64,000 nucleotides of DNA, taken from Umbilicaria muhlenbergii (taxonomy: Eukaryota; Ascomycota; Lecanoromycetes; Umbilicariales; Umbilicariaceae). Below, one piece after another: positions 5,551 to 63,783 of the stretch (position 1 is the stretch's first letter; every line of letters begins with the position of its first letter). The DNA lies in the NCBI GenBank assembly GCA_000611775.1, contig KK106986.1, positions 1,634,022-1,698,021 on the forward strand. Reading direction: 5' to 3'. The notes below the pieces were generated by a model. That model made no database searches. It was not told where the DNA came from and was given only the letters and a program-made list of their open reading frames with translations. A program made the translations under genes and the position numbers.

Positions 5551-5636
5551 TTTAATAAATTTTGACAGTAAATATCTCTTGAGTACCTTTTTCTTTTCTT
5601 TTCAGGGAGTACTTGTAAGAGGCAGGTTACAACATG

Positions 5637-5776: not shown

Positions 5777-5789
5777 AAAATGATAGCAA

Positions 5790-39218: not shown

Positions 39219-40278
39219 CTTTAATATGATTCAAAGTGAGAACGTAGTGTGATTGTATGATGGTGTGCAAATTTGGTGACCCCACCCAGCGCGATCGCAC
39301 CGCTGCTAGTGCTCAGCTCAGGCTGTCCAGCCTGCCTTAGCCTGATACGCTAATGCAACCACTGCGTGGTGAAACCAAAGTGCTCAAAATCAGCAGACTG
39401 TTCAAAGAGATTATTGTACACATTGATGGAAAGGGTGCAAGTGTTGTAAATATTGATAAGGACTGACTAACTAGCAAAGAACAATGTGGGAACCAGCTCA
39501 ATATAAGGCCCCGCCGTGACTGCCTGGACCCTGAAAACCCTAAACCCTGCCTGTCATCCAACACCGATATCAACCCCGATAAGCGACTGCTGTAAGCCGA
39601 CAGCGCCTAAATTCAACAGCAAGAAGCAGCCTGTTGAGTACATATGACCGATTCCTATCTTCATCATAGCTTGGTTTTGCAGCGCTCTTCCCATTTCCAA
39701 GTTTCTTCAGCATTGTCGTCGCTATGTCAGCAATGTACTCAAACAGAGAAAGTAGCCAAAGCAGCATTTCCACACTCAAATACAGCACCACTGTGCCTCC
39801 AGGCTCCCACTTCATTCAAGCCGTGTCGTGAACGAGTGGCCACAGGCATGGGGTGTATCAATTGTTGCACAGCGCGCATGAAAGGCTTGCTAGCTAGCTC
39901 TCAGCATTAAGCTTGAAGGGCATGCATTGTTTATGCAGCTCAGGGTAATGAATGTCAGCTCCCTGTGTATTGTAGGAGATTGATCATCTTGTATTGTGCT
40001 GAAATGCGCTTGATGGATGTTTTATTGTTCTGACCTGTGTCTGGGGCAGTGCTGGCTCTGAAGTTGAAGAGACAGAGGAGTAGAGTTGCTCGATGACTAT
40101 ACATAGAGCATTGAGACGCTAGAAGAGTCACCGGTCTAGAGGTAAAACTACGTTTAGGAAGAAAATCCTTGTAGGCCACTTGAGATTCAGTATAAGGATG
40201 ACATAAATACTTAAGATATATTATTCTTATTATAAAATGTTCTAATGTTAAGCTAAGAGGTTCTGACCGCTATAGCAT
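39219..40278. other. Host stretch without a supported gene
   Basis: Base composition returns to normal after the S element. Overlapping short frames at 39337-39910 and 39955-40179 have no motif and lie on both strands. Nothing is called. Confidence 0.45.
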
Positions 40279-40559
40279 AGCTTTAGGGGAGGCCTAACGG
40301 GCGTACGGCCTGAAACTCCGGGGGTGGGCCCAAGAGGACTACACCGCCCAGAAGACTCACGGTGAAACGCTATTTGAAGCCGTGGCGCCGGTCGCTCCAG
40401 GGTATGTAGCCCTATAAAAAGGGCGACTGAACCCTTCCATTAGGGCAGTCTTGGGTGCCGTACACTAATAAGCTGGCCAGGCTTAGTCTCGGGCTCTATA
40501 GGGAGCATCTGGCCCCGGTCCTCCCGGGGGATCACTACCGCAGACACCTCCCCTAAGCC
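40279..40559. repeat. GC-rich structured element with inverted ends
   Basis: TTAGGGGAGG (40283-40292) and CCTCCCCTAA (40547-40556) are exact inverted ends of a ~275-bp segment. It is full of short complementary G/C blocks and has CCCTATAAAAAGGG, itself an inverted repeat, near 40410. It may be a small nonautonomous element, a LINE or SINE fragment, or a structured RNA. No homologue lies in the window. Confidence 0.5.
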
Positions 40560-41123
40560 CCGTGTCAACCTATTGCCACCCTAAATCTATTGTGCGGAGG
40601 CCTCCAGCAGCACACCAGCGCCGAGGGTCCGACCCGACCCGGAAGCTACCTTACACCAACAAGGCTGAGAAACCTTTCCAAAGCGCTCGAGCTCTTAGCC
40701 AACGTTTGGCATTGGGGGCGGGCGAAGCGAAGTCGCGAGTACGTCCACTGCGGGAGATTGGGAGATGGAAGAGCAAGCAGTAGATTACAGATTCTATTTT
40801 ATGTTCAGAAGGACCAGATTGAACGCCTAATCTACATGTATTTAGAGAGAACGCTCTTAGCAAAACACCATTCGCGTATTCTGTTGGTGCTTCGAACGAA
40901 GCATTGATGGACATATTCCGCATCATATGATCAATTCCCCGATTTCTTTGTTCCCTTTACGTTGTATAGTCGATGATCAAAGCAATCCACCGAGTGGTTT
41001 CTTCCCGTTCGTTCATGGGGACCGTACGCGGGCATCGCACCCCCAAAGCTGTCTCCCAAGGGTGGATGGTGGTTAGCGCTCCCTCATGCGGTGGGGCCTA
41101 GTATTTAGTCTTGATACTATAGG
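40560..41123. other. Host stretch without a supported gene
   Basis: Short overlapping frames (about 70-105 residues) on both strands at 40562-40926 have no motif. I see no other structure before the stop of the secreted-protein gene. Confidence 0.45.
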
Positions 41124-43031
41124 TCAAGCAGCCCGCAGTGATCTGTCCACCACGTCCTTGATTGTTACCTGAATATCATCAGCGATTGGTGGGAAGAAGT
41201 GAGGGAACAAAGGCTCACAATTCTTCCATGCGTTATGCAAGATATCAGCGCATTGGTTGTTTGCCACCGGCGTGCCCAGATTGAAGCCTCCGTTGGGAGT
41301 ACAATTGTTGACAGAGGTGACGGTGATGTCGTAGACATCGTCCTGTTTGCCCATGCTGGGCGGATAGTCGTACGCAATATTGATTACTGCCCGACCCTCC
41401 TGCTTATCACCAGCGATGACCGTGTGTGCGACATTGATCGGGCCGTTCGGGACAGTCGTGGAAGCATATTCGTCACAGAAGAATTTGGCCGCCTTTCGCA
41501 GCTCGTCCTCGTGAGCGTCTTTGACAGAACCTATCGGGTTGGGGACACAGCTCGGCTGGGAAGGAGGATCCACTGGGGCAATGATGATGGGGGCGGAAGT
41601 CGTGGGGTCAGTCGCTTCTGGGGCATCAGGCCTTATGCAACTGGCGGGGACGTCGCGCTTCCTCTTGGGAGCGTCGGCGAAGTTCTTGTGGAGGTCTTGG
41701 ATTGCTGAGTCTACTTTAGTCATAAAATCCTCGACTTCTGACGTCTTGAGTGTGTCTAGATTTCGAAATTCGAACAAGGGCACCGAGCGCTGTGAATTGT
41801 ACATTTTCTCCATTTTGGTGCCAAGGCCTCCAATGGATTTGTCGATGCTTTCGTCAAATTTTGAAAGCGCGTCTGGTGAGGGATCTTCTTTGCCGATGCC
41901 TTGAATCCAGTCTTTGATGTTCACGGTAGCATCGGGGTCGGGTGTGGTATTAGTATACGATAGGGCGCCGAACTTATCGTTGGGGACTGGTTTTGTCACG
42001 GGCCCCGTGCAGTAGGTAGTGTCAACCCTGCATGCTGTTAGTTGGGCGAGCAAGAGGAGTCTGGTTACTGACACAACGTTGTCATCTTTATCCGTCTTGT
42101 AGCATGCAAGAGAGTTGAAAAGGTTGAACAGGTCACCCTTAAGCTTTGATTTGACTTGTCTATAAATGGTGTTAAACTCAGTTCGAGGCATGAATGTTAG
42201 GAACAGCTTAGGGCTCTGATCCGGCGACAATTTGTTGCTCGCGGCTTTGGCATAGGATAAGACCAAGGAACAGAAGCCAAGCACATCGTCGGTGACTTTG
42301 GACTTGTCGATGCCGTTTGCGTTGGACTGGAAATACGCCTGTGTTACGACGACAAGAGTGACGTCCGGTCGGAAATTAGTCCCGTCAAGAATGTTCTTGT
42401 CTGTAGGATCCGCCTGGTTTTCTTTCATAAGACTGTATAGGGCTTCAAGTGGCATTGGCGCAGTGACCTGTGGAGCCCACGGCAGATCCTCCGGTTCCTG
42501 ATTCTTATTGGTGGCGATCTTCCACGGGTTGCACTTGTTATTCGCAATGTCAACGGTGTTTGGCGGGTCCCCAGTCCACGGCTTCCAAGTGATCTGACAA
42601 CGTTAACAGGACAGGACACGAAGTGGCGTCGCTGTAGTACTTACAAGGTCATCCGCCCATGCTTTACCTGCTTTTGCACCATCTCCACTCCCGACTTTAA
42701 TGTTCTCGCCATTCAAAATGTACTCTGCATTGACCTTTCCCGGATCGGAGGTCGTGTCTGCCGTCAGCTCCCAGTTCATCCCCGTGCGCTTTGCGACGAT
42801 CTGTTTCCTCGCCGCATTTGTATCTTCGGCACTGCATTTTGGATTTGTGAAGTAGAAACCTGGACTCTCAAATTCGGCTCCAATGCCTGCGGTCCCGTCG
42901 GCAGTGGGTCCGTCGAGCTCGACCGCCTCAACGTCCTGTATATCTTGTATGCACGGATCCAGGCGTGGCTGTAGCGGTAGGTAGGCCGCAGAAGCAGTAA
43001 GCAGAATCGAGGTGTACGGGAGTAGATGCAT
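41124..43031 (-). CDS. Large secreted protein of unknown function, two exons, intact
   Basis: Seen: exon 1 (43031-42645) and exon 2 (42593-41124) join across a 51-nt GTAAGT...CAG intron, giving about 618 residues with no internal stop. The start MHLLPYTSILLTASAAYLP is a good signal peptide. Then come GIGAEFESPGFYF, a Cys-bearing NPKCSAEDTNAA, a WELTADT block, PWAPQVTAPMPLEALYSLM just after the junction region, and a C-terminal part with Cys pairs (SVNNCTPNGGFNLGTPVANN, NNQCAD, WKNCEP). A dibasic KRKRD lies in the middle. I recall similar GAEFE-type secreted proteins from other fungi but no assigned reaction, so none is given. Codons are undamaged although hypermutated elements lie on both sides. 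The 35-bp triple repeat at 43110-43214 is in its promoter position. Confidence 0.85.
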
Positions 43032-43109
43032 GGTGGAGATGAAAATCTTTCTTAAGTGGCAGGATAGGCTAGGTAATGATAATGAATCGCAGACTTGGCT
43101 GATTTCTCA

Positions 43110-43214
43110 AGTATAAACAAGGCAAGCACGAGGTTTATATATTGAGTATAAACAAGGCAGGCACGAGGTTTATATATTGAGTATAAACAAGGCAAGCACG
43201 AGGTTTATATATTG
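43110..43214. repeat. 35-bp tandem repeat, three near-perfect copies
   Basis: Units at 43110-43144, 43145-43179 and 43180-43214 start AGTATAAACAAGGCAAGCAC. The second has one A-to-G change. Each unit holds a TATAAA and a TTTATATA motif. They lie 79-183 bp upstream of the secreted-protein ATG and may affect its expression. Confidence 0.92.
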
Positions 43215-43811
43215 TCGCAACCATAATACTTCGAAGGAAGATACTCTCATCATCTTATTTGTTTCAAGGCCCCTAGATTGAATCCTGTGGGCTGTGTAAA
43301 TTGGTTGGGTCTTCTGACACTGATTCCCAATTGTATCATCGCCACCTGGTGTGTAGCGTATCAAGAGGTACCATGACCTTACTTGTTTTCAGCCCCCTGA
43401 ATAGGATTCTGTGCCCCATACATATTTGTTTCATCCTCTGACATCGAGTCCCGGCTGTGTCATCGCCACCTGGTGTCTAACGTATCAAGGAGCCCCTTAA
43501 TCTCACTTGCCTTGAGGAAAGCAGACGCGTTGGCTGACGTGTAAGGCGGTCGAAGGGGTGGGGAGTGGGGAGAGCAGCGACGAGTCTGGAGCAGAGTTGG
43601 GGCCACAGCGTAAGGGATGTGACGAGGAATGCGATTGGTACAATACTTACAGATCTTCAGACAGCGTCGTGGAAGGCATTCATATGTAGTGCGGTTTGCG
43701 ACGCTTGCGGATTATGCTGCGCACAGCACAGACAATGCAGACAGTGTGCCTTGAGTTGTGATCTCATGCGGTGCAGCTGAGTGTGACTATCTAAGCTGAA
43801 CACTGTGCCCT
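43215..43811. other. Upstream host DNA with a ~125-bp duplication
   Basis: 43240-43370 and about 43375-43497 are diverged direct copies: both run from a CTTATTTGTTTCA- or TTACTTGTTTTCA-like start through TCTGACA, TCATCGCCACCTGGTGT and CGTATCAAG. A 71-residue plus frame at 43565-43780 has no motif and is not called. Confidence 0.6.
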
Positions 43812-43816
43812 AGATA

Positions 43817-44058
43817 TGTTGAATTTCGCCGATTCGCCGCCGAGCAGACGTCATTGGGGCAGGGGTTCCTAGCAAGAGAAGCAGTCACGTCATGGGTGTA
43901 AATAAGTTTTGGCTTAGCGAAAAGCTCCTTAACATGTATATTAACAGCTTGAAAGCCTCAAGTTTCTGCTTTCTTCCTCACGTTCATTTATATCATTTGG
44001 GTGATATTTAGGCAGATACAATACATTTATTTGGTCTCTATATCATCTCATTACAACA
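43817..44058 (+). repeat. Copia-2 5' LTR, nearly unmutated
   Basis: 242 bp; lacks one 13-14-bp copy of a GGGGCAGGGGTT repeat present in the other LTRs. GGGG and CG sites are mostly intact while the internal region begins to lose them at about 44200. Confidence 0.92.
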
Positions 44059-44072
44059 GGTTATGAGCCCGG
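44059..44072 (+). other. Copia-2 primer-binding site
   Basis: GGTTATGAGCCCGG directly after the LTR, identical to Copia-1 and complementary to the initiator tRNA-Met anticodon arm. Confidence 0.75.
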
Positions 44073-44428
44073 TCAGTGTCTAAATTATCACCTGTTGCTG
44101 TTGCCTACCACCTCCACTTTAATCCTCACTGCCTTAACCCCCGCTGCTGTCAACCCCGCCGTCACCACCCCCGCCGCCATTGAGCAAGTTGAGCAACCAA
44201 AGTTTGCTTTGATATAAACCTTCAATATCAGCCAGTTATAAAGTTGAAAAACTGACTGAAAAAGATGTCAATCCTTCATATGAATTCCACTCTGAAAATC
44301 AAATGAATAGAAACATCTATATATATATGAAGGCTCAACAAATAGAACTTCAAATAAATACTCACACCCCTGAGTCATTATCCACGCCGCCGCATACGCA
44401 GAAGGCAGTCACACAGTCTTAAAAGAGT

Positions 44429-47400
44429 ATGAAATATGAGTCTCTGAAGGCCTCAGGCTTAATCAAACTCAATGAGATGAACTACACTCAATGAGCAGGG
44501 AGAACAAGGGGTTATTTAAAAGCATGAGGCTACTGAGACATCATAGACAGGACTGACGTTGCATCAGAGGAGAAGAAGAATTTAAATGAGAAGACATTAA
44601 AGCCTCTCATTAAGAAGTATAAGAAGTGAAGAAGAACTGATAGAAAGGCTTGAAATGACATATTGTCACTTTGCTCTCAGGAGGATGAAATGTTTTACAA
44701 ACTGAAAACAGCAAAAAAGCTTTGAGATCACCTTGAGAATATTAAGAAGCTTAAGAGCAAGTCATATTATTAATCACAGCTTAAAACATTCATCAATTAC
44801 AAGCAAGGACTCAAGGAGACAGCAGAGCAAGCTTATCATACCTTGAAGAAAATTCAGGTGAAGATTATGATGCTTAAATCAAAGGCGCTCATTAATGATG
44901 ACATGATTCAAGAAGTGTTCCTTGACTCCTTAAAGGAGGAGCCTTACAGCTCAGTTGTATTTCAAATAAACAATAAAATCATGAACCCTGAAATTGAGAC
45001 TGTTCTATGTCAATTGAAGGAGTGAGAAATGAAAGAAGCATTGAATAATAAATTAATTAATAATGTCACCACAAACACAGCTCAAGCAGGAAGCAAAGGC
45101 AAAGATGACAAGACAAGAAAAACATGTTTTCAGTGTCAAAAAAGAGAGCATTTCACCTCTGATTATTACACTTTAAAGATGAAAGACAGGGAAGAACTAC
45201 CTTTTAACAGAGTTAAATCATCATCAAAGTTCAAGGCAAATGCACAGCAAGTCAATGAAAATTCAGAGTCAGTGAAAGATTCAAAAAATTCAAAAGATCT
45301 GATTAGCCAGGACAACAAGTTCAACTCAGATGAGTGAGCATGAAAAACAGTGATTATGAAAGCTTTAATCAACTTAGAACTAACCCTTGACTGCTGAATT
45401 GTGAACTTCAGAGCAAGCCACCACATGACTCTGAATTGAGCAATTTTTGTTGAAATTCAGAACTATTACATGAAAGTCTGCTTAGTCAATGAGCACTCAA
45501 TAAAAGCAGCTGGAATGAGCAAGGTGAAAGTTAATTTTAAAGGGAGAAAATTCACTCTAAATGACATCCTTTATGTTCCTGAATTGAATGAAAATTTGCT
45601 GTCAATTGAAGCAGTAAGTAAGCACGGAATAACAGTTGAATTTGAGCTTAAAAATGTTGTTTTTAAGCATAATGAAAGCGTCATGATCACAGCAAATCAA
45701 CAAGGTTCAGTCTATGTTGTTGAGTTGATGAATGCAAAAGTGACCTTTAAAGTTCAAGCTTATCAAAAATTGATGAGCAGCCTGACAGCCTCAGTGACAG
45801 CAGGGGGAGAATCACCTACATTAAAGCTCACTCTGAAGTTAATGAGAGTAGTATCAGGCAGCATGATTATCAGTTTCATCACTCCTCATTTAAAAACAGG
45901 TTTAGAGCACATTACCTCTGAAATCTCTGAAAATTTCAATTTTTTCACACAGGCTTAATCTGACTACTGAAAGTGACATCAGAGGTTTAATCATGCTGAG
46001 GCAAGCTGTATGCAACACCTCAAGCTGTGTGTGAAAGGTATAACCTGTGAATTACACCCTAATGAGGTGAAGAAAGCCTGCTTGACATGTTTACATAACA
46101 AGATGATACAGGTACAGGCTAAGGAGTTAAAGTCAATGATTACAAAACATCTGCAACAAGTTTATTTAAACATTTGAGGAGCCTATCATGTTAATACTTT
46201 AAATGAAAACCAGTATTTTGTTACCTTTACAGATGAATTTGCCTGATATTCTGACATTTTCTTAATGACAAAGAAGATGAATATCTATGAAATATTCAAG
46301 ACTTAAAAGATGAAAGCTGAGAAAGAAATCAGTGAGAAATTGAAGATTGTACAGGCTGACAATGGCAGAGAATATATGAAATTGACAAGCATATGAGGGT
46401 CAGAGGGGGTGAAATTTAAATTTATCATCATTTACATGCCTGAGCAGAATGACGTCTCTGAACACTTAAATCATATGATTACAGAAGCAACTAGATGTAT
46501 GCTTTACAACACTCAATTGTTAATTAAATTTTAAGATGAAGCTGTCAAAACCACCTGCTACCTAAAGAATCACCTTCTTTTAGGAGATGATCATGAAGGA
46601 AGGACTTCATATGAATTATATAAGAGGTTTAAACCCTTCATTGAACATCTACGCTCATTCAGGTGTGTTGTTCATTGTCATATACTGAAGGAAAAATGAG
46701 TGAAACTTGAAAACACGTCTTATAAAGGGGTTTTCATGAGTTATTGTAAGAGCAATCAGCAATTTCAGGTCTGAAACCAAGCAAAAAAGCAGGTGAAAAT
46801 ACATACACATGTTTTATTCCTTGAGGGAGAGAAAGGCGGAAGCTTACTGAAAAATTCAGAACATTTCAAAGCAAATGAGGACTTCATGAACTCATATATG
46901 AATAATGATGATTACTCAGTGATTTTAATGCCACAGGAACTTGCTCAGAGGTGCACTGAAAGTGAAGAAGTAATGTCTTCAAGCTCTGAAGGTTCTGAAG
47001 CAGTGATGAATTTATCAGAGCCTCTGATGTCAACTCAGAGGCTCAAAAATCAAACTGAAAATTTTGAAGAAAATTTGAACAATGATACACAACTGAAACA
47101 AGCTGAGAATAACAGGGAAGGTTCTTCTGACTCTGAAGAAGTCTCTGAAATCATACATTTAACCTCTGAATCAGCCACTGAAATTTCAGAGCAGAATTTG
47201 AGGCTGCAGCAGCAGGCTTCAGTGTCATACACTACTCAATCTGACTGAATAATGAAACCAAACCCTCACTATGTTAATATGACAGTGCAGGAGCATATAC
47301 ATGAGTCTTTTATGTACAAGGAGGCTGTCCAGAGCCTTATTTATCAGCATCAATGATTACAAGTTATAAAAGAAGAGTTAAATTCTTTGACAGCAAACAG

Positions 47401-48532
47401 GACATGAGAATTGATTGAACTGCTTAAAGAGCATCAACCAATCACTTCTAAATGAGTATTCAAGGTTAAATACACTTTCAGTGGCCTTATTGAGCGCTTC
47501 AAAGCCAGGCTAGTCATCAGAGGATTTTCTCAACAATATGAGATCAACTATGAAGAAACCTTTACTTCAACTTTATATTTCAACTCACTACGCATACTTC
47601 TGGCTATTGCAGCGTATGAAGATATGCATATACACCAAATGAACATCATTAGCGCATACCTCACCAGCGAGCTTGAAGAGGAAATATATATGAAACCCTC
47701 AGAGGGGTTGTCATATAAAGAGTTTAAGAAAATGACCTGCCACCTAATCAAGAGGTTATATGATTTAAAGCAGTTTAAATGAGTTTGAAACAACACCTTC
47801 TGAGTCACTCTACATGACCTAAGGTTTGTCAGACTGTCTGAAGACAATTCTGTTTTTCTAAATGAGAATTCAGAGGTAATTATTGCTCTCTATGTCAATG
47901 ATTTGCTCATTTTCTTGAAGGAAATAAAAGCAATTATGAAAGTTAAAATGAAGCTTCAAAAGGCGTACAATATGAAGAATTTAAGTGAGTCAAATGTCTG
48001 CCTCAGGATTCAAATACGCTGAAATCAAAAAAATTAAACCCTTATGATCAATCAATATGCTTATGTTAGCAAGGTTCTTAAGGAGTTCTTTATGAATCAT
48101 TTAAAGACTGTTTCTACATCAATAAACAGCTACAAATACATAAAATCAGCCCTAGATGATGAGTCAATGATGAATCAATTGAAATATCAAAAGGCAGTCA
48201 GAAGCCTGATGTACATCATGACTGTCACTCACTCAGACTTGACCTTCACTGTGAGTAAATTCAGTCAATTTTGCCACGCCCTGTCTGTTTAAAATTGAGC
48301 AGGCTTACAGCATGTGTTTCATTACCTGCAAGGCATGAAAGACTTGAAAATTACATTTTCAGAGGTTACCTCTATGAATATAAAGGGCTATTTGAACTCA
48401 GACTACACTGAAGACATCATGAACAGAAAGTTCACATACAAATATGTGTTTACTCTTGCTGAGGAAACAATATCATGATCTAGCTGAAAACAAAAGATCA
48501 TCATCACATCAATCACTGAGGCTGAATATGTT
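44429..48532 (+). pseudogene. Copia-2 gag-pol remnant up to the hAT insertion
   Basis: From ATG 44429 the frame continues through dozens of TGA codons: gag (LNEMNYTQ, GYLKAW), a CFQCQKREHFTSDYY zinc knuckle whose last Cys is now Tyr (45124-45170), a protease motif DCWIVNFRASHHMT at about 45390 where DSGAS has lost its Asp and Gly, integrase with FVTFTDEF and VQADNGREYM (46220-46380), RT with FKARLVIRGFSQQYEINYEE (47495), DLKQ and YVNDLLIF (47896) in place of YVDD, then RNase H up to SITEAEYV at 48532. The order PR-IN-RT-RH defines Copia. The loss of catalytic residues shows it is inactive. Confidence 0.92.
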
Positions 48533-48853
48533 TATGGTGGCTGTTGAGATGAGACAGAATTAAATTTCTAGTCTCTGTCTCATCCTGATCTCATCCTGTC
48601 TCAGTGATGATTTTTCAGTTTCATCCTGATCCTGTTGACAGAATAAGACAGGAATAGTCTTGTTGTCTCTGCATCATTAATATGTCATGATGACAGTAAC
48701 TTAGGCCTAACCTAAAGAGGCTTGATACAATATTACATTAAGATAGACATCATTTAAGGAGTCACCAGTTTACATTTCATAATAGATCATTACATTTGAT
48801 CATTAGAACTGTTGAATTGAGTCTCAATATAATCTGCGCATGACTAACTGTAT

Positions 48854-49587
48854 CTACTGAACCAAAGCACCAAATCCACTCATATACCACTTCACAAGTG
48901 TCAAATCCTTTGACTGTATTGTGATACGCTTGCCGTGGATGGCGGCAAGTTGAGTGTCTAGATAAAAGTTGAATCAGTATAACATTAGAAATAGGAGGTT
49001 AGAACTCTCACTTTCAAAGAAGGATATCATGTACTCTTTCATCACTTCTTGCAGTGCCTTCAACATGATACACTGTATCTGAAAGCCCGTGTCCTCAGTA
49101 GGCACCATTTCAGTCATGATCTCATGAACAATTCTACTGAATGAGGCTTTTGAAATGAGGAGATCTGTTGACTTTTGATATCATTTGATTTCACGCAGCG
49201 CTTGAACTGTACAATCATTGAGATAAATCATTAGAATTGATAATTAATATGCTGATATAACTTAACAACAGGCCGTGCAGCAGGTTTAAGCATTGTAAGC
49301 TTTTCAGTTAAATGTGAAGTTCCTGCTGCTCTTGCAGCAGCATCAGCCGTTCTTCATGCATGAATATCAATATGATACTGTGCCAGGCGCTGTTGATAAT
49401 TGGTGATGAGGATGATGATGATGATGATGATGACTTGTGCGTTGATTTTCTTCTTCCTAGGATTGGCCTTGGCCTTGGCCTTGACATGCGCAGCATGAGC
49501 TGAACCAGCTTTTGCTTTTGCTTTTGCGGCAGTCTTTTCATCAGTTACTGAGGCTTTTCAGGGTGCTTTGGTCATTATTTGTTTCAT
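48854..49587 (-). pseudogene. Histone H3-like gene carried by the hAT element
   Basis: Seen on the minus strand: ATG at 49587, an Ala/Lys-rich tail (KTAAKAKAKAGSAHAAHVKA, NPRKKK), an (ATC)n run at 49400-49440, LTEKLTMLKPAARPVV, a first intron with blurred borders (about 49212-49265), then QALREI, YQKSTDLLISKASFSRIVHE, GFQIQ, LKALQEVMKEYMISFFE, a 54-nt intron (49011-48958, GTGAGA...CTAG), DTQLAAIHGKRITIQSKDLT and the stop at 48854. Known: ALREI, YQKST-LLI-K, F-R-V-EI, ALQE, the FED-T junction and AIH-KR-TI--KD-L are the histone H3 fold in order. The stretch between EI and FQ is 11 residues, against 9 in canonical H3; longer loop 1 is common in CenH3. The tail is not the H3 tail (no ARTKQT). 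Only two or three TGA codons interrupt it, all at likely Trp. It lies wholly inside the transposon, opposite to the transposase. Confidence 0.85.
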
Positions 49588-50136
49588 TCATGTCATTCTG
49601 AAATGTTAGAAATGATTGTTATGTTGAGAATACAGAACCTACATGTTATGGACTGATGATTTATTGTGATAGTGAATGATGTTGAGATCATAATAAAGTG
49701 AGTGAATGTGATTGTGGATGATGTTGAGATCATAAAGTGAGTGAAGGTCATGATGTTATTTCAGTGTCACGTGCTTTTATGCTAAGTTTAAAGCGTGCAT
49801 CAATAAGATCATGTTGACATCACCCTCACCTCAAATTCCTGTCACCCCTCAACTCAATCACTCACATTTTTACAAATCATTTATCTCTTGACCTGCAAGC
49901 AGTCTTCTCATCAGTCATTGAATGCACATCTTTTACTCATGATATTTCATGTCCTGGCCTTTGTGGTGAGCCTCATGACTCTCATGATGCACATCCTAGC
50001 TCTTATGATCAGTCAGCTCAGTCTGCTCTACTAAGGATGAGTGTTACCCCTGTTGAAGAAGGCTTCATTAGTGAGTCTTAACTTCTTTTATTAAAAAAGA
50101 TGATATAATGATCTGTTGACTAATTATACATGACAG

Positions 50137-50420
50137 GCCTTGTAGAACTCTCATCATCATCAGCTCAAGAGAGTGATTCTCAAGCTACCCCTGTTGCAGA
50201 AGTCTTCACTAGTGAGTCTTGACATTTTCTATTTTAACAAGATGTTATAATGATCTATTGGCTGATTATACATGATAAGTCTTGTAGAACTCCCCTCATC
50301 ATCAGCTCATGTGAGTGACTCATATGTCATACCTGTTGCAGAAGTCTTCACTAGTGAGTCTTGACATTTTCTATTATAACAAGATGTTATAATAATCTAT
50401 TGACTGATTATACATGACAG
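50137..50420 (+). repeat. Tandem duplication of a whole exon plus intron, 142-bp period
   Basis: Unit 1 is exon 50137-50211 and intron 50212-50278; unit 2 is exon 50279-50353 and intron 50354-50420. Each exon is 75 nt (25 codons) and the introns are 67 nt, all phase 1, so the unit can multiply without breaking the frame. The preceding intron 50071-50136 and the start of the following exon at 50421 are partial further copies. Confidence 0.88.
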
Positions 50421-51954
50421 GCCTTGCTGAACGCTCCTCATCATCAGTGCAAGTGAGTGAGTCCCCCGTGATGACATCATCAATGAAAAAACGCGCTCAT
50501 ACAGCGCAATCTGATGATGAGAATGTGCAAACTGAGCAAATTCTAAACTCTTCAACACCCCCTGTTCTTACTACCCCTCATAAGCCGCGCACAAAGTGAA
50601 TAAAGACTGAAGTGAATAATGATACTAGCAGTTTTCAAACAAAGATCAGTAGGTATTCTAATGATCTATTGTAATGAAATCACTAACCATGCATTCTTAG
50701 CGCCCAAAATGCTTAATAGGTATACAAAACCTTCAATTTACATTGAAGGTGAAGAAGAAATGTTCATAGCAGAAAAGGTTCAAGCAAAAGCAGCTGTCAA
50801 GGCAGCAAACAGGACTGTTGAAGCACTTATGAAAGATCTCACAGATTTCAGCCTGAAAAAGACTGCTGACTCATACTTCACAACATCTCAGAAGGTGATT
50901 GAGGCGTGTGAACTTCATCATGAGAGGATGCAGGATCCTGATGAGGCAGTGTTATTGAGAGCTGATGATCATGATTGAGCTGCTGTCTTTCAAGCTAGGA
51001 AAAAGCTAAGGCTTATTGATGTGTGAAAAGCCGTCAACTCAGCAGATTGAAAGGCTATGAAAGAGAAGTGTCAACTAAATGTTCTGACAGATCATTTCAA
51101 TACTGATGAAAGTGATATGTGTTTTTCTTTCTACATTTCAATTCAGGAATCAACTCACAAATGATAACTGAATTCTTTCAAGTGCAACACAAGCAACAGC
51201 TGCGTCATGCAGCATATTAAGTGCAACAGAAAGAGGAACAGGAGCATGCAGAAGCTCTCAGCACAATGAGAGCATTAAGAGGAGACTCTGAATCTGCATC
51301 TGAGTCATTTGTCTTTATGATAATATTATAATGATCTCTTGTAATGATCACGCATGCTTATGACTATGCAGGATTCAAAAGATGATGAATATCAGAGAGT
51401 TGTCACTGCCAGACTTGCCGTCTCTGTGAAGTGTTATGAATGAATCATCTAAATTAATGATCTTCAAGACTTAATTGATGCTGAAGATCCTGACTCAGCT
51501 GACATCATGAGAAAGTTTCATAAGCAGATTATGAACCCAGATCATATTGAAGATTCAGAAGAGCAGTCAATGCAGGTCTTTTACATTTTAATGTTTCATT
51601 ATAATGATACTTATTCAAAACTGTCTAACTATCTGTACCCTGCTCTGAGACAACAGGTTCTGAAGAAGGACGCTATCATGATTGCTGACTCACAGGTTAA
51701 GACAGTTCATACAGAGTCATCTGAGACATACTTCAATGAAGATGATCAAATGTCTGATTTCATAATCAAAGAGTCATTCAAAATTCTTAAAGGGGATGAT
51801 AATGAGGATGATGCTGATCTTCCCTCAATTACTACAGGCTCTGATGACTTCATTCAGCATCTTGAAGCTGTTTTTGCCCCTGACGACAATAGTATCCTCA
51901 TAGAGAGTGAGGTAGCTACAAGATATGAGGAGAAAGAGCTTAAGAATGAAAACA

Positions 51955-52055
51955 TGAATGATGCAAATGCAGGTGGTGCAAATGCAGGTGATGCAAATGC
52001 AGGTGATGCAAATGCAGGTGATGCAAATGCAGGTGATGCAGATGATGCAGATGAT
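51955..52055 (+). repeat. 15-bp coding minisatellite
   Basis: GATGCAAATGCAGGT is repeated about five times, encoding DANAG, and then passes into GATGATGCA-type acidic codons just before the stop. Confidence 0.95.
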
Positions 52056-52375
52056 GAGTAGGTGAACAAATCAGAGTCTGAATCTCAATGAAGTAAACAA
52101 GCATTATCTGACGTGATCAGACATTTTCAAGGATGTTGACTGTTCAACAAATGTTAAGCACATCAATCAGACTGTGTGATTCATCAGGTGGCATTGATCA
52201 TCATAATCATGCATTAAAATTCCTTTTTCAGAATAGTTTAGTCTTTAGTTCAATGCATGTATGTACTTTCTTAATTAAGTGATTAAAATTCAAGCTCCGC
52301 TCAAATAAACTGTTTGATTCAAAGGGCTTTCTGTATTCTCATACCCTTTAACATCATTATTCATCTTAAGACAGC

Positions 52376-55341
52376 ATGACTTCCTCATAATTTACTCTTA
52401 CTTCTGAAGATGGCTGAGCTTCAGCTTCACAGTCAACTTCTGCTGACCTCTTATTTGTCACTGAACCACCATCAGCATGTCTTTTATGAAACAGAAAGGG
52501 TGACTATGTTCTCTGAACCTCTGAGTTTCATGATGAATTCAAAGAGTGGTGGAAGAGAATGAAATGAGGTCAGGATACATTCAAGAAGGTGACAAGACAC
52601 AGACCTGTTCTCTGAGGTAGTACAAAGTGAAAGGCTCTGCTGTGAGCATCATATCATGAGGCTGCTGAAATTAAAACTGAGAAGCCTGCTGTTATCTGCA
52701 AACTTTGTGAGAAAGTTCTGAAACATCTTAATCCTAATGATGCAGGGAGCAATGGTATGACAAAGCATATCAGCATCAAAAATTGTGAGGTGAATTAAAC
52801 AGGGCAGATGACTCTTCCTCAGTTATTGCAAAAGGTATTGACTTCTTTAAACCCCTGTTATAATGATCTATTCTAATGATATGACTTCAATTCATCAACT
52901 CTGTACCCACTAAGCCCGCGTCTAGCAGATTTACACAAGAAGCCTTTGAGGATCAACTTGTTCAAATAATCCTTGACCTCAACATGTCTTTCTGCTCAGT
53001 TGAACATTCCTCATTTTTACGCTTGCTTGATTTTCTTTAACCTGGTGTTGAGGCTCCTCATCAAACCAAGTTCTCTCACCTTGTCAAGAAGTGAGCAAAG
53101 AAACTTAAACAAACTGTGCTAATAAGATTAAGATCAAGGATGAAAGTTTCTTTAGCACTTGACTGTTGAACAAGTTCAAATAACCTTGCATTCCTTGACA
53201 TCACTGGTTACTTCATAGATGATAACTGAGATTATCATGAGGTTCTTCTTGAGTTCTCCCCTCTTCACGGCAAGCATACAGGGAAGAATATGACAAAGGT
53301 GATAATGAATGTGCTTGATAATTATGAGCTCCTGAATAAGCTCCTTGCTATCACAGCTGACAATGCCTTAAACAATGAAACACTGCGCACGGAGCTGGCA
53401 TCACTGCTATGAAAATGAAAGATTCATTGAAATGAAGACATGAATACTGTCAACTGCATGACACATGTCTTTCAAATATACATCAACGCACTACTACACT
53501 CACTTAAAGTGTCAGCAAACAATGACAATCCTACAAAGAAGTGAGATGTCAAAACACTGAGTCAATTAAAAGAGGTGCATGAGAAGGATAAAGACTTTGA
53601 TTTTACATTTTGAAAGGTTTTAGTCTTTCTAATGATATATTATAATGATCAATTAACTTTGCGTTCAGGTCCGTGCATTAGCCATTGCAGTCAACTCATC
53701 ATCACAATGACTTGAGAGATATAAAGTCACTCAGATCAATACACCCCCTCATTTGCAGAAGGGCATAATTGAAGATGTTGTGACAAGATGAAACAGTTCT
53801 TTCTTCATGCTTGAATGAGCATATGAGATGCGTGAGTTCAGCAGAGAATGAATAAAAGAGGAGAAGTCTATATAATGAGTTTTGATACTCAATGACACTG
53901 AATGAGAGCAGGTCAGGTATCTCATCAGTTTACTGCAATCATTTTAAAGCTTTACAGATGCGCTGAGAGTGACAGATCAGTTAAGCATTTTTTGCACTTG
54001 AGTCACTTATAATGAACTTTTCAATCATTTAGAGTGACAGCGTCAAGAAGTTTAAAAGTCTAAACTCAAATGATCTTCTAGTCTGCAGGAGGCTATTGCA
54101 GCGGCAAAGAACAAGCTTTCAACATATTATGAGTGAATGTATGATGAGTGAAGAGTGTTGTTTGCAGTAGATGCCTGTCTTGATCCTTCTTTGAAGCTTG
54201 ATTTGTTCAAGGTAAGCAGTCAACATTTCTAATGATCTATTGTAATGATTCTAGACTTTATATTCTAATCGCTACTGCAGGGCGTTGAATGAGACTCTGA
54301 GGATTATGCACAGTATCAACAAGAGTTCCTTGATTATTATGAAGTGAATTATCAAGAACAGGAGACTGTTCAGTATCAGTCATGACAGCCTGCGCCTTTT
54401 AGCATGATGAAGAAATCCCTGAAGAGTGTTCTCTTAACTTCAAGGAGTTCCGCGCTTCAGAGATCAAGGGAGATGAAAAATTATCAAGAGAGTGAAGCCT
54501 CATGATACTTTAATGAAATGAAATTAAAGCATGACAACATTCTTCTTTTATGAAAACAGCTGAAGATCAGTAAGCCTGCTTTATCACAAATGACAAAGGA
54601 CATTCTTGCTATATTAATAATTGATGTAAGTGTGAAGTGCCTTTTTTTCATGACATGAGATGTTGCTACTTATCATCAGAGTCACTTCAACTCAGACACT
54701 ATATCTGACATCATGATAATTAAAAAATGTGACACTACTCACATTCATGATATGGTGGCACATGAGGAAGGTATACAACAACATACTCAAGATGATTGAT
54801 CTCCTCCTGCAGATGAACTCACCCCTAATGATCAAGAATGTGAAACACAGTGAGTGAATATGAATGATGCTGAGAGTCTTACTCACATTTCTTTATCACA
54901 TGATGAAGGTGATGCATCAAATGTCAGACATAAAGGTGAAGGAGGATATATGTCAGCACATAAGAGAGGAAAACAATGAGTCATTGAAGTATTCAGGTAT
55001 GTTACTTAATGTAATATATTGTTGTCTGTCTAATAAGAAGCAGTGATACTGAGGAGTTAATGAACATGAATTATGATGTGAATGAGCTGAATGATGATGA
55101 GCCTCAAGCATTATCACCTGATGTTAATCATATGAGGTCACCTGCAAAGCTACAGAATGTTGTTGATGTAACTGAAGACTTAAATGAGCTACCAATTCTA
55201 TCAGGTCAGCATGATAAACCACTAAGCTTGAGTTTCATACTCACGGAAACATCAACCAGCTCAAGGGCAAGACTAGGATATGTCTTGAGTAACAAGAGGC
55301 AGCTGCAAAGAAAAAAAAAAAGATTAAAATCAATAGAATAA
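52376..55341 (+). pseudogene. hAT transposase, BED finger plus catalytic and dimerisation regions
   Basis: From ATG 52376 the frame reads through TGA codons: a Ser/Thr-rich start, then a BED-type finger (VICKLCEKVLKHL...TKHISIKNC, 52690-52790). After intron 52835-52914 comes FEDQLVQIILDLNMSFCSVE. Then AFLDITGYFID, LLEFSPLHGKHTGKNM and ITADNALNNETL (53190-53400), the hAT catalytic core. Introns at 53617-53668 and 54212-54280 follow. The C-terminal hAT dimerisation block is at 54130-54720 (RVLFAVDACLDPSLKLDLF; PALSQMTKDILAI; DVATYHQSHFNSDTI). A further intron near 54992 may lead to a last exon at 55060-55341 ending in a basic tail QRKKKRLKSIE. Family members cut and paste DNA with 8-bp duplications, as observed here. 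The many TGA codons make this copy inactive. Confidence 0.88.
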
Positions 55342-55614
55342 ATTGATAATCTAGATCATTATAATGAATCATTACAATGTATTAATTTCCCTGTGTCTGA
55401 ATTAACCTTTCCCCGTGTCTCAAAACCACTGACAGCCATATATAAGAAGTCACGTGATCAGGATCCTGCTGAGATCAAGAGACAGAATGAGACAGGACTC
55501 CTGTCTCAGTCCTGAGGGACAGGACTACTGCTTGATCCTGTATCTTGTCCCGTCCCGTCCCGTCCCTTCATCCCGGACCGGGACTCCCGTCCCGGCGGTC
55601 ACCCTAAATATGTT

Positions 55615-55902
55615 GAATTATGCAACATCATCAAGACAGCAGCCTGAATCATGAAGTGACTTAAAGAAGTTAAGTTAACATGATTTTTAAACTGTTCTTC
55701 AGCTCAATTATATGAGGACAATCAGTTGAGCATGAAGCTCATCAAAAATCCTGAATTCCACGCCAGGACCAAGCATATCAATGTGCAGTATCATTATGTA
55801 AGAGAAGCTTTAAAAGACAGCCTTATTATACTCATTTACATTCCTACTGCTGATATGCCTGCTGACTGCTTGATGAAGTCACTTACAAGAGAGAAATTTT
55901 AG
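55615..55902 (+). pseudogene. Copia-2 RNase H, C-terminal part after the hAT insertion
   Basis: The frame interrupted at TEAEYV resumes after the TSD and ends with DNQLSMKLIKNPEFHARTKH, INVQYHYVREAL, IPTADMPADCLMKSL and a TAG at 55902, the usual Copia end. It proves that the hAT element jumped into Copia-2 and not the reverse. Confidence 0.93.
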
Positions 55903-56203
55903 ACTGAAGTTTCTCTACTTGATCTCATCAACACTTAAGGTTCTTCAGGACTGCTTTTTCAAGTTTAGTCAGTATGATCATTTAAAAGAGTGTACTGAAA
56001 TCCCCTTCTGATGAACTCCCTAGGTCTTCAGAGCACGTGGTTGTTGACTCATGTTTTTATTTTAATTCTAGTTGAGTCATTTTGGCCGCCATTTTACCTA
56101 CCACTTACAGAGGCCAAATCTAACACTTGTTAAACATTATTTTATTCATTTTATGTTTCAGAGTTACCCCTGAAAGCTGCTGGCAGCGAAGCTGAAGAGG
56201 GAG

Positions 56204-56274
56204 TGTTGAATTTCACTGATTCACCACTGAGCAGACATCATTGAGGCAGAGGTTTAAGGCAGAGGTTTTTAGCA
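56204..56274 (+). repeat. Copia-2 3' LTR, left part
   Basis: TGTTGAATTTCACTGATTCA... to TTTTTAGCA. Compared with 1-58 and 43817-43875 it shows CG-to-TG/CA and GGGG-to-GAGG changes. Interrupted at TAGCA by Gypsy-C; continues at 63595-63778. Confidence 0.92.
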
Positions 56275-56729
56275 TGTAAGTGTACTACCGTGAGGTAATA
56301 TCTTAACTAAGGAATTATGAAGCTATGTGACAATAGTGGCTTAAGCTTATAGTTGATGGTTCACAATAGTATGATATTGTTAGTAGGTAGAGAATTATTG
56401 TTAAGAAAGAAAGTGAAACATGCTTTGACCTCATAATATATCTCTTCTGAAGTTAGCCTGCCTGAGGAAGATCTCATGAAGCAGTCACCTCAGTGAAGTT
56501 GTCTTCATGAGGTGTTCATTGCTGAATCACACCTTCATGAGGTGTCATCAATGATGTTAACTTCTTTAATCACTTTCATGAAGTGTCAGGAATGATGTTT
56601 ATTAACTGAGCTTCCTCATGAGATTAATTCACTAATGAAAGTTACCTTCACAAGATTGTGCTGTTGTTAAACATAATCTTTCCTATTCTGAACTAGCACC
56701 TGATGAGTTTCATACATCAGATGCTCACA
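56275..56729 (-). repeat. Gypsy-C 3' LTR
   Basis: 455 bp, TGTAAGTGTACTACCGTGAGG... to ATGCTCACA; a single copy of the block duplicated in the 5' LTR. Confidence 0.9.
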
Positions 56730-56745
56730 TTGCTCCTCTTCTTCA

Positions 56746-58000
56746 AAAACTCATGCTCTCATGAGTATGATGACATTCACAGTTGCAAGCCTTCACTGAG
56801 AAGTACTTCACAATGCACTGATAACAGTTAAAAAAAATGACCCTGTAGGTCAGAAAAAAAAAAATTTAAAATCATAAAAAAAATATGTTGTGAAGCTCAT
56901 TAAAACTCAGTGAGAAAAAGAGTCTCCCTTCACAAGATGTTTGTGAAGTTATGATTAATTTATACACTGACTCAGTGTTCATGATGATTATTGCTCATTT
57001 GTGAGCCTGTTCAGCTGTTCATGAGGTCATTCAGATTCACTTTGTTAAGCCTCATGAATGACTCTGCGTGAGTCATAAGGTCAGAGTTTTCACTGTCAGC
57101 AATCTTCACAACTTCAATCTTTCACCCCTCATCAGGTAAGTTCATGATCATGATTCTTATGATGCCTCTTGTGATGTTTTGCCTCTGTGATGCTTGTCTT
57201 TGTGATGCTTGCCTTCATGATGCTTGCCTTCATGATGCTTGCCTTCATGGTGCCTTTTCACTAACAGTGGTATAGCTCATCATGCTTTGCATCAGTCACA
57301 TCATCAACATTTTTAAGCAAATCATCTGTGATTCTTGTTTGTTTCCTCTGTTCATGCAGGCCTCTGACTCAGCCCCTCACAATTAAACCTTTCATGAGGT
57401 AGCCCTTCATGAGGAGGCTCAGCTTCATGACTGCATCATCTTGCAGCAGCTTGTCTGACTCACTGACTGTGAGCAAGATCATGAAGCAGTTTGTAAGTGA
57501 TCTTCATGATCACTTTTCATGAGAACACTTCATGACTGACCTTCATGATAATAATTGTGAAGACTGAAGACATCCCCTTTTAAGCCTGTGAGCTGTGTGT
57601 TGTTGCTGCTGCAGATTGCAGTCTTAATCATTTTAAGAGTTGTTTCCTCTCCCCTCATGCTGTCAAGTGTGTGAAGTGTCATCAGCACATCAACAAGGCC
57701 TGCATCTTCCTCTGTATGATTTTATGATATGTTTTCATGAAGCGCTTTTGTTAACTGTTCACAACTTCATCTCTGTCACTCCTGACCTCATCATCTCCCT
57801 CATGAGAACTGAGTCTGCCTTCATCTTCATCTCTGCCCTCAGTCAACCTTGACCCTGAGGGTCACAAGGAGGCGCGCAAGGCGCGCAAGCAGAAGAAATG
57901 TTAAATGAGCAAGACTTACAAAGCTGCTGTGACTGCTGCCTAGACTTGACGCCTCTGTGAAGGTGAAGACTCATGAGCTTCACTGAAGGAAAATACTGCT
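56746..58000 (+). pseudogene. Antisense ORF region at the 3' end of Gypsy-C
   Basis: Between pol (minus) and the 3' LTR the plus strand carries coding-like pieces: a possible donor GTAAGT after CCTCATCAG at about 57136, repeated CCTTCATGATGCTTG units near 57185-57255, a Cys-rich AVKCVKCHQHINKAC at about 57660-57710 and a basic EARKARKQKKC near 57870-57900. The position and the Cys/Lys character match the Gypsy-B region 19417-20560, though the sequences are diverged. No family is recognised. Confidence 0.35.
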
Positions 58001-58149
58001 GTGATAAACTGATGATGATTGAGATGTTTAAGCTCTTTCAGAGGTAAATATCAGCTCCTGTGAGGATTTATCCCTCACAGGACTTTAACTCTGAGTCAGA
58101 TTTCTTCACAGTGTTAAGAATTAATAAGTCTTAACAGGTTGAAGTCAGT

Positions 58150-61100
58150 GTAACTCATTCCTTCATGAGCCTTCAGACTTCATGAAGTGATTTCACTTTC
58201 AGTCCTTTGATAATCTAGTGCTCTGATGAGCAGAAGGAACTTTAACTCTTTACTTAATTTCCTCATGAACATGTACTGACATTGATTATGACTCATGAAG
58301 TCTCAGAAAAGTCCTCATGAAACTTCTTAATCAATTTCTTAAAGTTGCAGATGTTATTTATAAATTTTTAAGTAATCTCTGAGGATTCCTTTCACACAAT
58401 GCAGTATTATAAAACAGGTTTATCCTCAGGGCTGATCACAATTCATGAGGCTGTTATAACCTCAACCTCTCACTCTCTTTCAGCTGAGTTTTTCATGAGA
58501 TGAAGTAATTTAAGCTCTGATGTATCCTCACCTGCTCACGGTTTATGATCATGAAGCAGGTTAACATGAAACACATCATGAATGTGAAGTTCCTTTGATA
58601 ATTTCAGCTGATAAGCAATGTTCTCAATCTTCTTTACAATCTGAAAGGGTTCATAACACTGTCAATTCAGCTTTCATGAGAGTCACTTCAGAGTTATGTT
58701 CTTGACCTTTAATCAGACTAACTGTCTGACTTTATAAATCACATCAAGGTGAGACTGATTGTAGTGTTTAACTTGATACTCTTAAAACTTCACAAGAGCT
58801 CTGCAGACTTCTATTCAAGTCTTATGAAGATGCTTCACAAGCTGCTCAGCTTCAATGATAACTTCCTTAATTGCAGAGTACTTCATGAGTTCCTCTGCAG
58901 TGAGCATATCTGATTTAGGTATGAAGTCATAGATGACCTCAAATAATGTCTTTTCAGTAGAAGAGTGTAAACTCATGTTGTACATGAACTCAGTTAATGT
59001 TAAAAGTGAGGCTCAATTGTTCTGTTGATAGTTGACATAACTTCACAGGTACTGTTTCAGCATGTTATTTTATCATTCAGTCTGCTTATCAATTTGTGAA
59101 TGAAAGGCAGTGCTCAACTGATGATCAATCTTCAACATGAACATCAAGTTGACTCAGAGTCATGAGGTAAAAACAGATTCATGATCTGAAATTAAAGCTT
59201 AAGTGACTTCATGCAGCTTAATAATCTCTCTCACAAAGGTCTTCATGAGTTAATCAGCAGTTCAGTTCTTTCTGGCTAAAATATAATGTGTCATCTTTGA
59301 GAATTTACACATCATCATCAGTATGACATCATACACACCCTCATAAGCATGGCTCTCTGAAAGGTCAGTTATGAAGTTTAAAGTGAGTATCTCTCAGAGT
59401 TCCTTCAGAATAAATATGAGTTGTAATAGTTCAGATTGTCTTTCATGAATGACTCTGACTCTCTGACAGACAAGACAAGAATTACAGTATTTTTAAATTT
59501 GCTTTCACATGTCTGATCAGTAGTACTTTGCATGTATCAAGGTAAAGATTTTCTCTGTCATGAGGTGATTTGCAAGTGACTCATCATGATGCTTCTTAAT
59601 AATCTCACGTCATAATGACTCCACATGAGGTATATAAAGCATTGAGTTAAAGTATAAAAGATCATTCTTTCATGATCAGAGTGAGTGAGAACCTGACATT
59701 CTTGAATTAACTTCATGAGCAGTGATCTGTTTCAGCATATGCTTCATGAGGGGATCAATTCACAAGAACTCAGGTAACATTTCAATGAGAGAGATGTTAA
59801 TCTCCTCATAAAGTTCTTCATTTAAAACAGCCTCAGAGGCCTGTTTCTGTTGATTTCACTGTCAAGGACTTGTTGTGCCTGCAATTAATACCTTGTGAAG
59901 GTGTACCTCCTGAGTCAATAAATCATCCTTAAACTCAACTGAAATTAAGACTACTGTCAGGAACAGCATCTGTTGCAACATTAAAATATTCTTAATCTGA
60001 TCCTCTTGTTCTGCTTCATGTTGATGATCAGGTCTCCGTGAAGGGCTGTCAGCAGGATTCAGATTTCCCTTTCAGTAGGTGATAACAAAATCATAGGTTG
60101 ATAAGGTCAACACTCATCAAACTTGTCTTCATGAGAGCTTATGAGTAGTTATAAAACTTCACAAGCTTGAATGATCTGATAACACCTCAACTGAATGAGT
60201 GAATCCTTCTAAATAGTGTCATCAATGATGAAAACTCTCAACTATCATGAGCAGTTCTTCATCATGAGTTTCATACTTTCATTTCATGAGTATCATTCTT
60301 CATGAGAAATAAGCTGTAACTCTTCACTCATCAGAGTGTTTTTGTGAGAAAATGCCTGAGATCACATACCCTGAGGCATCCATTTCAAGTCATATTGATA
60401 ATGTGATGTTGAAATGCTGCAGGAACAGAGCAGTAGTGAAAGCCTGCATAAGAATTTTAAAGACAGTTTGTGTCTTCAGAGACAGGAAGCCTGCTCTTCA
60501 TGAGATTAACTTCTTGTTTAATTTTAAATTAAACCCTTTAGTGATCTCTGTGAGAGGTGCAGTGATACATGAGAAGCTCTGTATGAACCTCTGATAAAAG
60601 TTCATGAAGTTCAGAAATGTTTACACTTCATGCACACTTTCTGACTCTGATTAGTTGATAATGATGAATATGTGATTCATCTTCATTTCAACCCCTGTAT
60701 CTGTGATAACATATCTCAAGAAGGGCACACGCTTCACATTAAATAAACATTTAAAAAGTTTTGTGAACAACTCTGCTGTGAGCAGAGCTTTCAAGATAAT
60801 CTGAACATGCTGTTCATGCTGACTCTCTTTCATTGAGTAAATCAGTATATCATTCAGGAATACAATCATGAAGATGTTTAAATGTTCATGAAGGACTTCA
60901 TGAATATAAGATTAAAAACTTGCAGAAGCATTAATAAGCTCAAAAAGCATAATTAAGTATTCATACAGCCTGTACTTAATATGAAAGGCTGTCTTTCACT
61001 CATCATCCTTGCATATGCAGATGTGATAATAAATGTTTTTAACATCAATCTTCATAAAGATCTGAGTATCACAGACATGATTCATGATCTCATTAATCAA

Positions 61101-63040: not shown

Positions 63041-63072
63041 AGCGTCCTTACAATGAATTGAAGCAATAAAAC

Positions 63073-63589
63073 TGTAAGCGTACTACTGTGAGGTAATATC
63101 TTAACTAAGGAATTATAAAGCTATGTGACAATAATGACTTAAGCTTATAGTTGATGATTCACAATAGTATGATATTGCTAGTAGGTAGAGAATTATTGTT
63201 AAGAAAGAAAGTGAGATGATTCACAATAGTATGATATTGCTAGTAGGTAGAGAATTATTGTTAAGAAAGAAAGTGAAACATGCTCTGACCTCATAATATA
63301 TTCCTTCTGAAGCTAACCTGCCTGAGGAAGGTCTCATGAAGCAGTCACCTCAGTGAAGCTGCCTTTGTGAGGTGTTCATTGCTGAATCACATCTTCATGA
63401 GGTGTCACCAATGATGTCAACTCCTTTAACCATTTTCATGAAGTGCTGAGAGTGATATCTATTGACTGAGCTCCCTCATGAGGTTGATTCATTAGTGAAA
63501 GTTACCTTCACAAGGCTGCGCTGTTGCTAAGCATAACCTTTCCTATTCTGAACTAGCACCTGGTGAGTTCCGTACACTGAATGCTCACA
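63073..63589 (-). repeat. Gypsy-C 5' LTR with 62-bp internal duplication
   Basis: GATGATTCACAATAGTATGA through AAGAAAGAAAGTGA occurs twice in tandem at about 63155-63278. The left LTR has one copy. Confidence 0.92.
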
Positions 63590-63594
63590 TAGCA

Positions 63595-63778: not shown

Positions 63779-63783
63779 AGATA

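Follow-up and report, generated by a model that had tools for sequence, protein, structure and literature searches.

The stretch analysed here, hereafter the window, comprises 64,000 nucleotides of the Umbilicaria muhlenbergii genome (contig KK106986.1, positions 1,634,022 to 1,698,021 of the forward strand) and contains a transposon of the hAT superfamily with a gene for a histone H3-like protein on its minus strand. We found that copies of this hAT element carry the H3-like gene as a rule. Taken as a whole, the best explanation, which we hold with moderate confidence, is that the hAT element in the window is a dead copy from a lineage that has long had an H3-variant gene of its own. Judged from its sequence, the gene is very likely a resident under selection, and a role against silencing is plausible. 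If the gene is such a resident, these transposons would be a rare case of mobile DNA that itself supplies a nucleosome component, and one could ask directly whether elements counter silencing through the histone and not through its marks. The kind of element is already published, and the two published cases would merit a second look.

The H3-like gene in the window

The gene runs on the minus strand from 49575 to 48854 and comprises three exons and 202 codons, three of which are in-frame TGA; an initial annotation, made from the letters alone, had placed it correctly to within a dozen bases. Exon 1 (49266..49575) encodes an Ala/Lys-rich tail and holds two of the TGA codons. Exon 2 (49012..49206) encodes alpha-N, alpha-1, loop 1 and alpha-2 and holds the third, and exon 3 (48854..48957) supplies loop 2 and alpha-3 and closes with a TAG stop at 48854-48856. 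The gene is spliced, as the annotation had proposed, but by two introns and not one: intron 1 (49207..49265, 59 bp), whose donor GT is lost in the window copy, and intron 2 (48958..49011, 54 bp), which reads GTGAGA..TCTAG. Because of the three TGA codons and the damaged donor, this copy makes no full protein now.

Does the gene encode a histone? The frame at 48974-49180 on the minus strand alone matches the Pfam Histone family (PF00125) at E 8e-8 and 33 bits (cut-off 26.4), and the joined exons, with stops written as X, match it at E 1.5e-20 and 74 bits. The joined reading retrieved 176 distinct sequences from the PDB at E 0.001 or better, and the best 60 of these 176 (7e-21 to 7e-19) are nearly all named H3 or centromeric H3 (CenH3). 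These matches bear out the H3-type fold that had been read by eye on the minus strand of the element of about 7 kb. The tail, too, is long, basic and unlike that of H3, as annotated: 105 codons precede ALREI, with 24 Ala, 19 Lys or Arg and 5 Asp or Glu, and the ARKS context that surrounds K9 and K27 in the canonical H3 tail is absent from the window reading. The spacing between EI and FQ is 11 residues, compared with 9 in host H3 and 13 in host CenH3. Host H3 (C1:484630-484878) shares with the transposable element (TE) gene the histone fold and the motifs ALREI..YQKST and IH.KR.TIQSKD; the TE gene differs in its unrelated tail, longer loop 1, other intron positions and heavy divergence.

The element that carries the gene is complete, 7,074 bp long and dead, and spans 48533..55606. 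Its ends were set by comparison between copies, which end sharply at both points, and it is flanked by an 8-bp target-site duplication (TSD), AATATGTT, at 48525..48532 and 55607..55614. Four of eight end pairs, including that of the window copy, are identical over 8 bp; the L026/L035 pair is identical at a one-base offset, and three of the eight differ at two bases each. The terminal inverted repeats (TIRs), whose extent was judged by eye, are short and imperfect: the left one (48533..48557, plus strand) is decayed and begins TATGGTGGC, and the right one (55582..55606, minus strand) ends ..GGTCACCCTA. Left ends in other copies start TACAGTG or TATGATG, among others. The TSD, the TIRs and a hAT dimerisation region in the transposase are all traits of the superfamily. 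As described initially, the H3-like gene sits next to the left TIR, with the other genes beyond it, and runs opposite to the transposase.

Copies, families and constraint

We searched the 34.8-Mb genome for related sequences. A piece of the H3-like gene matched 22 places at the DNA level, 18 of which, the window included, cover 211-747 bases at 90-100% identity, and the transposase matched 21 places, 15 of them near full length at 91-100%. A one-off capture is ruled out by these 18 long gene pieces and by the further families described below; most other copies of the element carry the gene, so that neither result named by the initial annotation as a refutation occurred. The Pfam Histone profile identified 44 places, which by position divide into 36 transposon-borne genes and 8 host histone-fold genes or pieces (six of the eight were read; C1:6166981 and C5:265582 were counted by position alone). 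An exon of a further family, L047/L048, matched 69 places, host H3 among them.

The gene and the transposase keep a fixed arrangement. We compared 69 H3-like places (67 of the 69 from the exon search and two from the Pfam Histone search, omitting host H3 and the second piece of one gene) with 59 transposase places, one per locus, omitting second exons and some fragments. For 59 of the 69 H3-like places, the nearest related transposase is no more than 15 kb off, on the other strand, and the H3-like gene points away from it; random strand and side would give about one quarter, places within one element not being independent. Viewed from the transposases, 47/59 have an H3-like place within 15 kb. 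This count includes a distant hAT at C1:2161220 (23% identity), which lies 9.8 kb from the H3-like gene of locus L049 on the same strand and is also counted as an exception in the H3-like tally.

Besides the window family, three further diverged families have H3-like genes, and in two of the three a related transposase lies alongside. In one family, each element has four H3-like genes, A-D (one copy keeps three), opposite to the transposase. Its copies, L041-L046, lie at C5:12000-31000, C2:6618500-6628400, C5:880500-889500, C3:3462500-3472400 and C1:5898500-5907500. Its transposase pieces are 38-40% identical to the window's, or 28-35% over longer stretches, and the hAT dimerisation matches at C2:6629898 and C5:10955 fall on the side expected. 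For the L047/L048 family, 36 H3-like places were counted, at 57-100% identity, and L047 and L048 have transposases about 4 kb off on the opposite strand, at C1:3992335 and C2:2371444. L049 combines an H3-like gene with a relative (C1:2169437-2170081; 34% identity, 2e-17) of the element's central open reading frame (ORF). Outside the window family this ORF was found only there; it was looked for in the four-gene and L047/L048 families and not found. One copy of the four-gene family, at C5:12-28 kb, seems to be split by about 8.3 kb of other sequence, a 3.1-kb part of which recurs at C1 with 99.5% identity.

All four families share their intron positions and phases, which we read by eye. Intron 1 is a phase-1 intron in the codon aligned with T of H3 PGTVALREI, and intron 2 a phase-1 intron in the codon aligned with D of LFEDTNL; the last residues of exon 1 (RPG, YKSG, FKSD and the like) align with YKPG of H3. 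Most of the TE-gene introns have GT and AG ends, several sister copies in the window family keep a clean GTAAGT donor at intron 1, and L049 has introns in the same two places, one with a decayed acceptor. The fold part of host H3 contains a phase-1 intron at G, one codon (3 bases) upstream of TE intron 1, and a second intron between TI and QSK, and host CenH3 is interrupted after FSRLV. Because host H3 and CenH3 are interrupted elsewhere, intron 2 is peculiar to the TE genes among the genes read.

To set aside C-to-T decay, we measured constraint by counting only transversions. In 21/21 pairs of seven TE genes, third positions have a higher transversion rate than first and second positions combined. 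Moreover, in a plain DNA alignment of paralogues A and B, transversions occur at 15/184 first and second positions and 18/92 third positions (Fisher p 0.0096), with 8/46 in the intron. A and B therefore diverged inside the element under protein constraint. Within this genome, these counts fit the purifying selection that the initial annotation had suggested looking for. One old resident gene fits both the shared introns and the third-position bias between families.

The copies have since decayed. AT-rich stretches that we measured retain CpG at 0.08-0.24 and CpC at 0.50-0.78 of expectation and the H3-like gene retains 0.40 and 0.72, compared with 0.84-0.88 and 1.02 in the gene islands at 1-4000 and 40001-44000. 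Over 6001-38000 and 44001-64000 of the window, CpG and CpC contexts are decayed and CpA is retained. In 13 aligned copies of the H3-like gene, leaving out three of 16 rows (L022, L023 and L024) that are rearranged or truncated, 192/793 columns vary and seven contain a transversion. Four of these seven are changes to T in the window copy only, clustered at the start of intron 1 (~49240-49268). Reassignment of the TGA codon was considered and ruled out: AT-rich parts have lost CpG and CpC, the two measured gene islands have not, and TAA stops occur too.

Origin and possible role of the gene

How do the TE genes relate to H3 and CenH3? A first tree, with 12 TE rows, two host rows and 15 of 65 public matches, placed the TE rows and host H3 and CenH3 on opposite sides of one branch (94/88). 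Because decay removes Arg codons, a second tree was made with decay-producible residues hidden, and the same split was recovered (81/84). The TE genes are set apart from the host rows and join CenH3, as a CENP-A would, in neither tree. P0038, an uncharacterised 305-residue H3-fold protein of Geoglossum umbratile with a long tail, adjoins the TE rows in the first tree and may be another transposon-borne or domesticated copy.

Elements carrying H3 have been described before, where the initial annotation knew of none. Our literature search on H3 in hAT elements gave only two such papers among the matches listed. Manning et al. 2013 (PMC3538342) describe an H3L-carrying hAT in Pyrenophora tritici-repentis and read it as transduplication with recent expansion. 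They state that H3L is neither H3 nor CenH3 and has an altered tail, and a legend reports introns in some expressed sequence tags on the element, in a passage that names no gene. Dhillon et al. 2019 (PMC6710886) report 784 H3-like copies in hAT elements of Pseudocercospora fijiensis altered by repeat-induced point mutation (RIP), and similar elements in five relatives (Mycosphaerellaceae). They regard the P. tritici-repentis case as recent and independent, and inferred capture of a transcript because introns are absent from the carried H3 copies. The available part of a further paper, PMC4994206, merely cites the 2013 study. No sequence match of ours was named P. tritici-repentis or P. fijiensis, most matches carrying no name.

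The window element resembles both kinds in part. Like the P. tritici-repentis element as described (PMC3538342), it combines transposase, central ORF and H3-like gene, but copies there are 5.6 kb and near-identical, and here 7.1 kb and decayed. It shares with the hATs of P. fijiensis, Cercospora and Sphaerulina an 8-bp TSD and the H3-like cargo; those hATs have one or two H3-like genes per element, with the carried copies mutated by RIP, are 9.5-9.9 kb long, and have H3-like copies described as intronless (PMC6710886). By contrast, in this genome two introns are conserved in the families that we read, an element can hold as many as four H3-like genes, there are several families, and decay affects CpG and CpC, whereas RIP in P. 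fijiensis is reported in that paper to be of the CpA type. Pack-MULE transduplication, named in the same paper, likewise places a gene of host origin in a DNA transposon, but here the families all retain one gene in a constant arrangement. The introns, the several families per genome and the signs of constraint are departures from the published capture reading.

Could these hATs nevertheless have taken up a transcript of host H3, on one occasion or several, and carry it as a passenger without function? Such transduplication is how the elements of P. tritici-repentis and P. fijiensis have been interpreted (PMC3538342 and PMC6710886), the copies here are decayed, and host H3 is so strongly constrained that several captures would also leave a third-position bias. 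We nonetheless think it quite unlikely, given introns at positions common to the families and absent from host H3 and CenH3, paralogues that diverged under constraint inside one family, and a divergent layout repeated in 59/69 places, which separate captures are not expected to yield. The product might instead be a transposition cofactor that binds the transposase or target nucleosomes and steers insertion to heterochromatin, where it does least harm. The gene does stay with the transposase in most places, and 26/26 examined flanks of window-family copies are AT-rich and CpG-poor, but such a composition could also arise if copies survived mainly there or if the flanks mutated afterwards. In addition, L017 and L018 are tandem copies whose flanks are partly element DNA, and the figure covers the flanks only, not the genome at large. 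We consider this role unlikely.

The remaining alternative, suggested by the initial annotation when it likened the EI-to-FQ spacing to centromeric variants, is a CenH3-like protein that lets the element use or disturb centromeres. The spacing is two residues longer than in H3, as that annotation had noted and as in CENP-A, FSRIV resembles FSRLV of host CenH3, and the top PDB match, among the best 60 of 176, is S. pombe Cnp1 (7e-21 versus 8e-20 for H3). The trees do not join the TE genes to CenH3, however, and loop 1 ranges from 9 to 16 residues across the TE genes, with the canonical length in paralogues A and B. Furthermore, 12/12 TE rows keep Q of host-H3 TIQSKD where host CenH3 has M, a weak sign because several non-centromeric H3 rows from other organisms have M too. 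Sequence comparison does not support the centromeric reading, and it strikes us as highly improbable.

Several observations weigh against a long-resident gene. The two papers discussed above read the H3-like genes of other H3-carrying hATs as captured. Intron 1 may descend from the host H3 intron through a 3-base shift. Five of the 69 H3-like places are arranged otherwise and five have no transposase within 15 kb, and 12/59 transposase places have no listed H3-like place within that distance. Two of these 12 (C2:6677564 and C2:5058618) keep a shorter gene piece about 3-4 kb off, and three (C2:146642, C2:6135356 and C1:4567707) are distant hATs at 25-27% identity; because the transposases without the gene include such distant hATs, the H3-like gene accompanies one hAT clade and not every hAT of the genome. 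L049 has a frameshift in exon 2 and only presumably belongs to the hATs, because a transposase of the clade was looked for nearby and not found. The 21 pairs in the transversion comparison overlap and are not independent, their alignment was protein-guided, and only a single pair served as unguided control. The trees are moderately supported, with only two rows carrying the host label: label shuffles were equally clustered in 28/500 cases for the first tree and 39/500 for the second, and in the second tree branches at 37/0 separate the L047/L048 family from the rest of the TE rows and put P0038 and P0049 among these. Finally, in a wider transposase search every match of the clade has in-frame stops, so there is no sign of activity here, and the composition of the 26 flanks speaks against lasting evasion of silencing: because all are AT-rich and CpG-poor, any escape from the host was not permanent.

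What might a resident H3 variant do for its element? On repeats in many fungi, both DNA methylation and the binding of HP1 are guided by H3K9 methylation. Searches of the genome gave one preSET_CXC match and, for C5 DNA methyltransferases, two strong matches in long frames (one with a stop) and two weaker ones. Eurotiomycetes are reported to lack E(z) (PMC12543289), which speaks weakly against that class as the source. We propose that the hAT lineage split into several families in the ancestry of this genome and kept the H3-like gene, its orientation and its two introns. The product of a live element would be an H3-fold protein whose divergent basic tail lacks the ARKS context of H3K9 and H3K27. 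It would pair with host H4 and be placed on element DNA that had just been synthesised or inserted. The element's own DNA is the most economical place for deposition, because a variant without ARKS cannot take the mark in the usual place. On the resulting nucleosomes the host could not place H3K9 methylation, and hence no DNA methylation, so that the element would stay expressed and open to its transposase; copies would be killed later by the host's repeat-directed C-to-T mutation. We put this anti-silencing mechanism forward tentatively, as one that may well prove wrong. The sequence shows the gene itself, its residence in the elements, the introns common to the families and the constraint between them; a single origin of the TE H3 genes is something we infer, as are nucleosome deposition and any gain to the element. 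It seems to us evenly balanced whether a whole fungal hAT clade has had its own H3 variant, for replication or against silencing, since before its families split. If so, the reported transduplications would be branches of one ancient lineage and not separate accidents.

Other parts of the element and the window

The stretch between the H3-like gene and the central ORF (49576..49900) is a candidate divergent promoter, judged from layout only, and part of it is repeated in copy L023. Fungi have divergent H3-H4 gene pairs, which this arrangement recalls; the central ORF has no Pfam histone match. At 50045..50460 (plus strand) a 142-bp unit is repeated 2.9 times in tandem; by eye it resembles an exon and intron of the central ORF. 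The main part of this ORF (ORF2) occupies 50616..52061 on the plus strand and has an acidic C-terminus. It gave no match in a Pfam search up to E 1 and none in a homologue search at E 0.01, in which decay may hide relatives because the search requires exact five-residue words. The transposase (52662..54798, plus strand) comprises four exons by eye, with a BED-like finger, an RNase-H fold and the dimerisation region, and has many in-frame stops. The dimerisation family PF05699 (Dimer_Tnp_hAT) scores 21.1 bits in the window copy, 21.4 with neighbours (equal to the cut-off of 21.4) and 13.6 on the stops-as-X reading alone; sister copies reach 28.6 bits, with others under the cut-off. The window's hAT RNase-H and zf-BED matches are below their cut-offs. 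A homologue search with the transposase that scored the 8000 candidates sharing most words gave one metagenome match, at 39% identity.

Two loci show other forms of the element. In the window-family copy L026 (1711-3211; C2:6671868-6675078), a 274-bp stretch of the central-ORF repeat is amplified about fivefold, and part of the H3-like gene is missing. L050 contains at 8683-9356 (C2:2712982-2713655) a short sequence that has only both ends of the window hAT, at 79-85% identity, and resembles a non-autonomous derivative; at 2725-6093 it holds a tandem array with a 466-bp step and 98-99% identity, beside decayed DNA.

The element sits in the AT-rich part of the window, and frames flanking it read by eye as Copia reverse transcriptase and RNase H. 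A gene island at 41124-43106 on the minus strand has a frame of 492 amino acids, without a Pfam match, and one of 167 amino acids with a signal-like start, as judged by eye.
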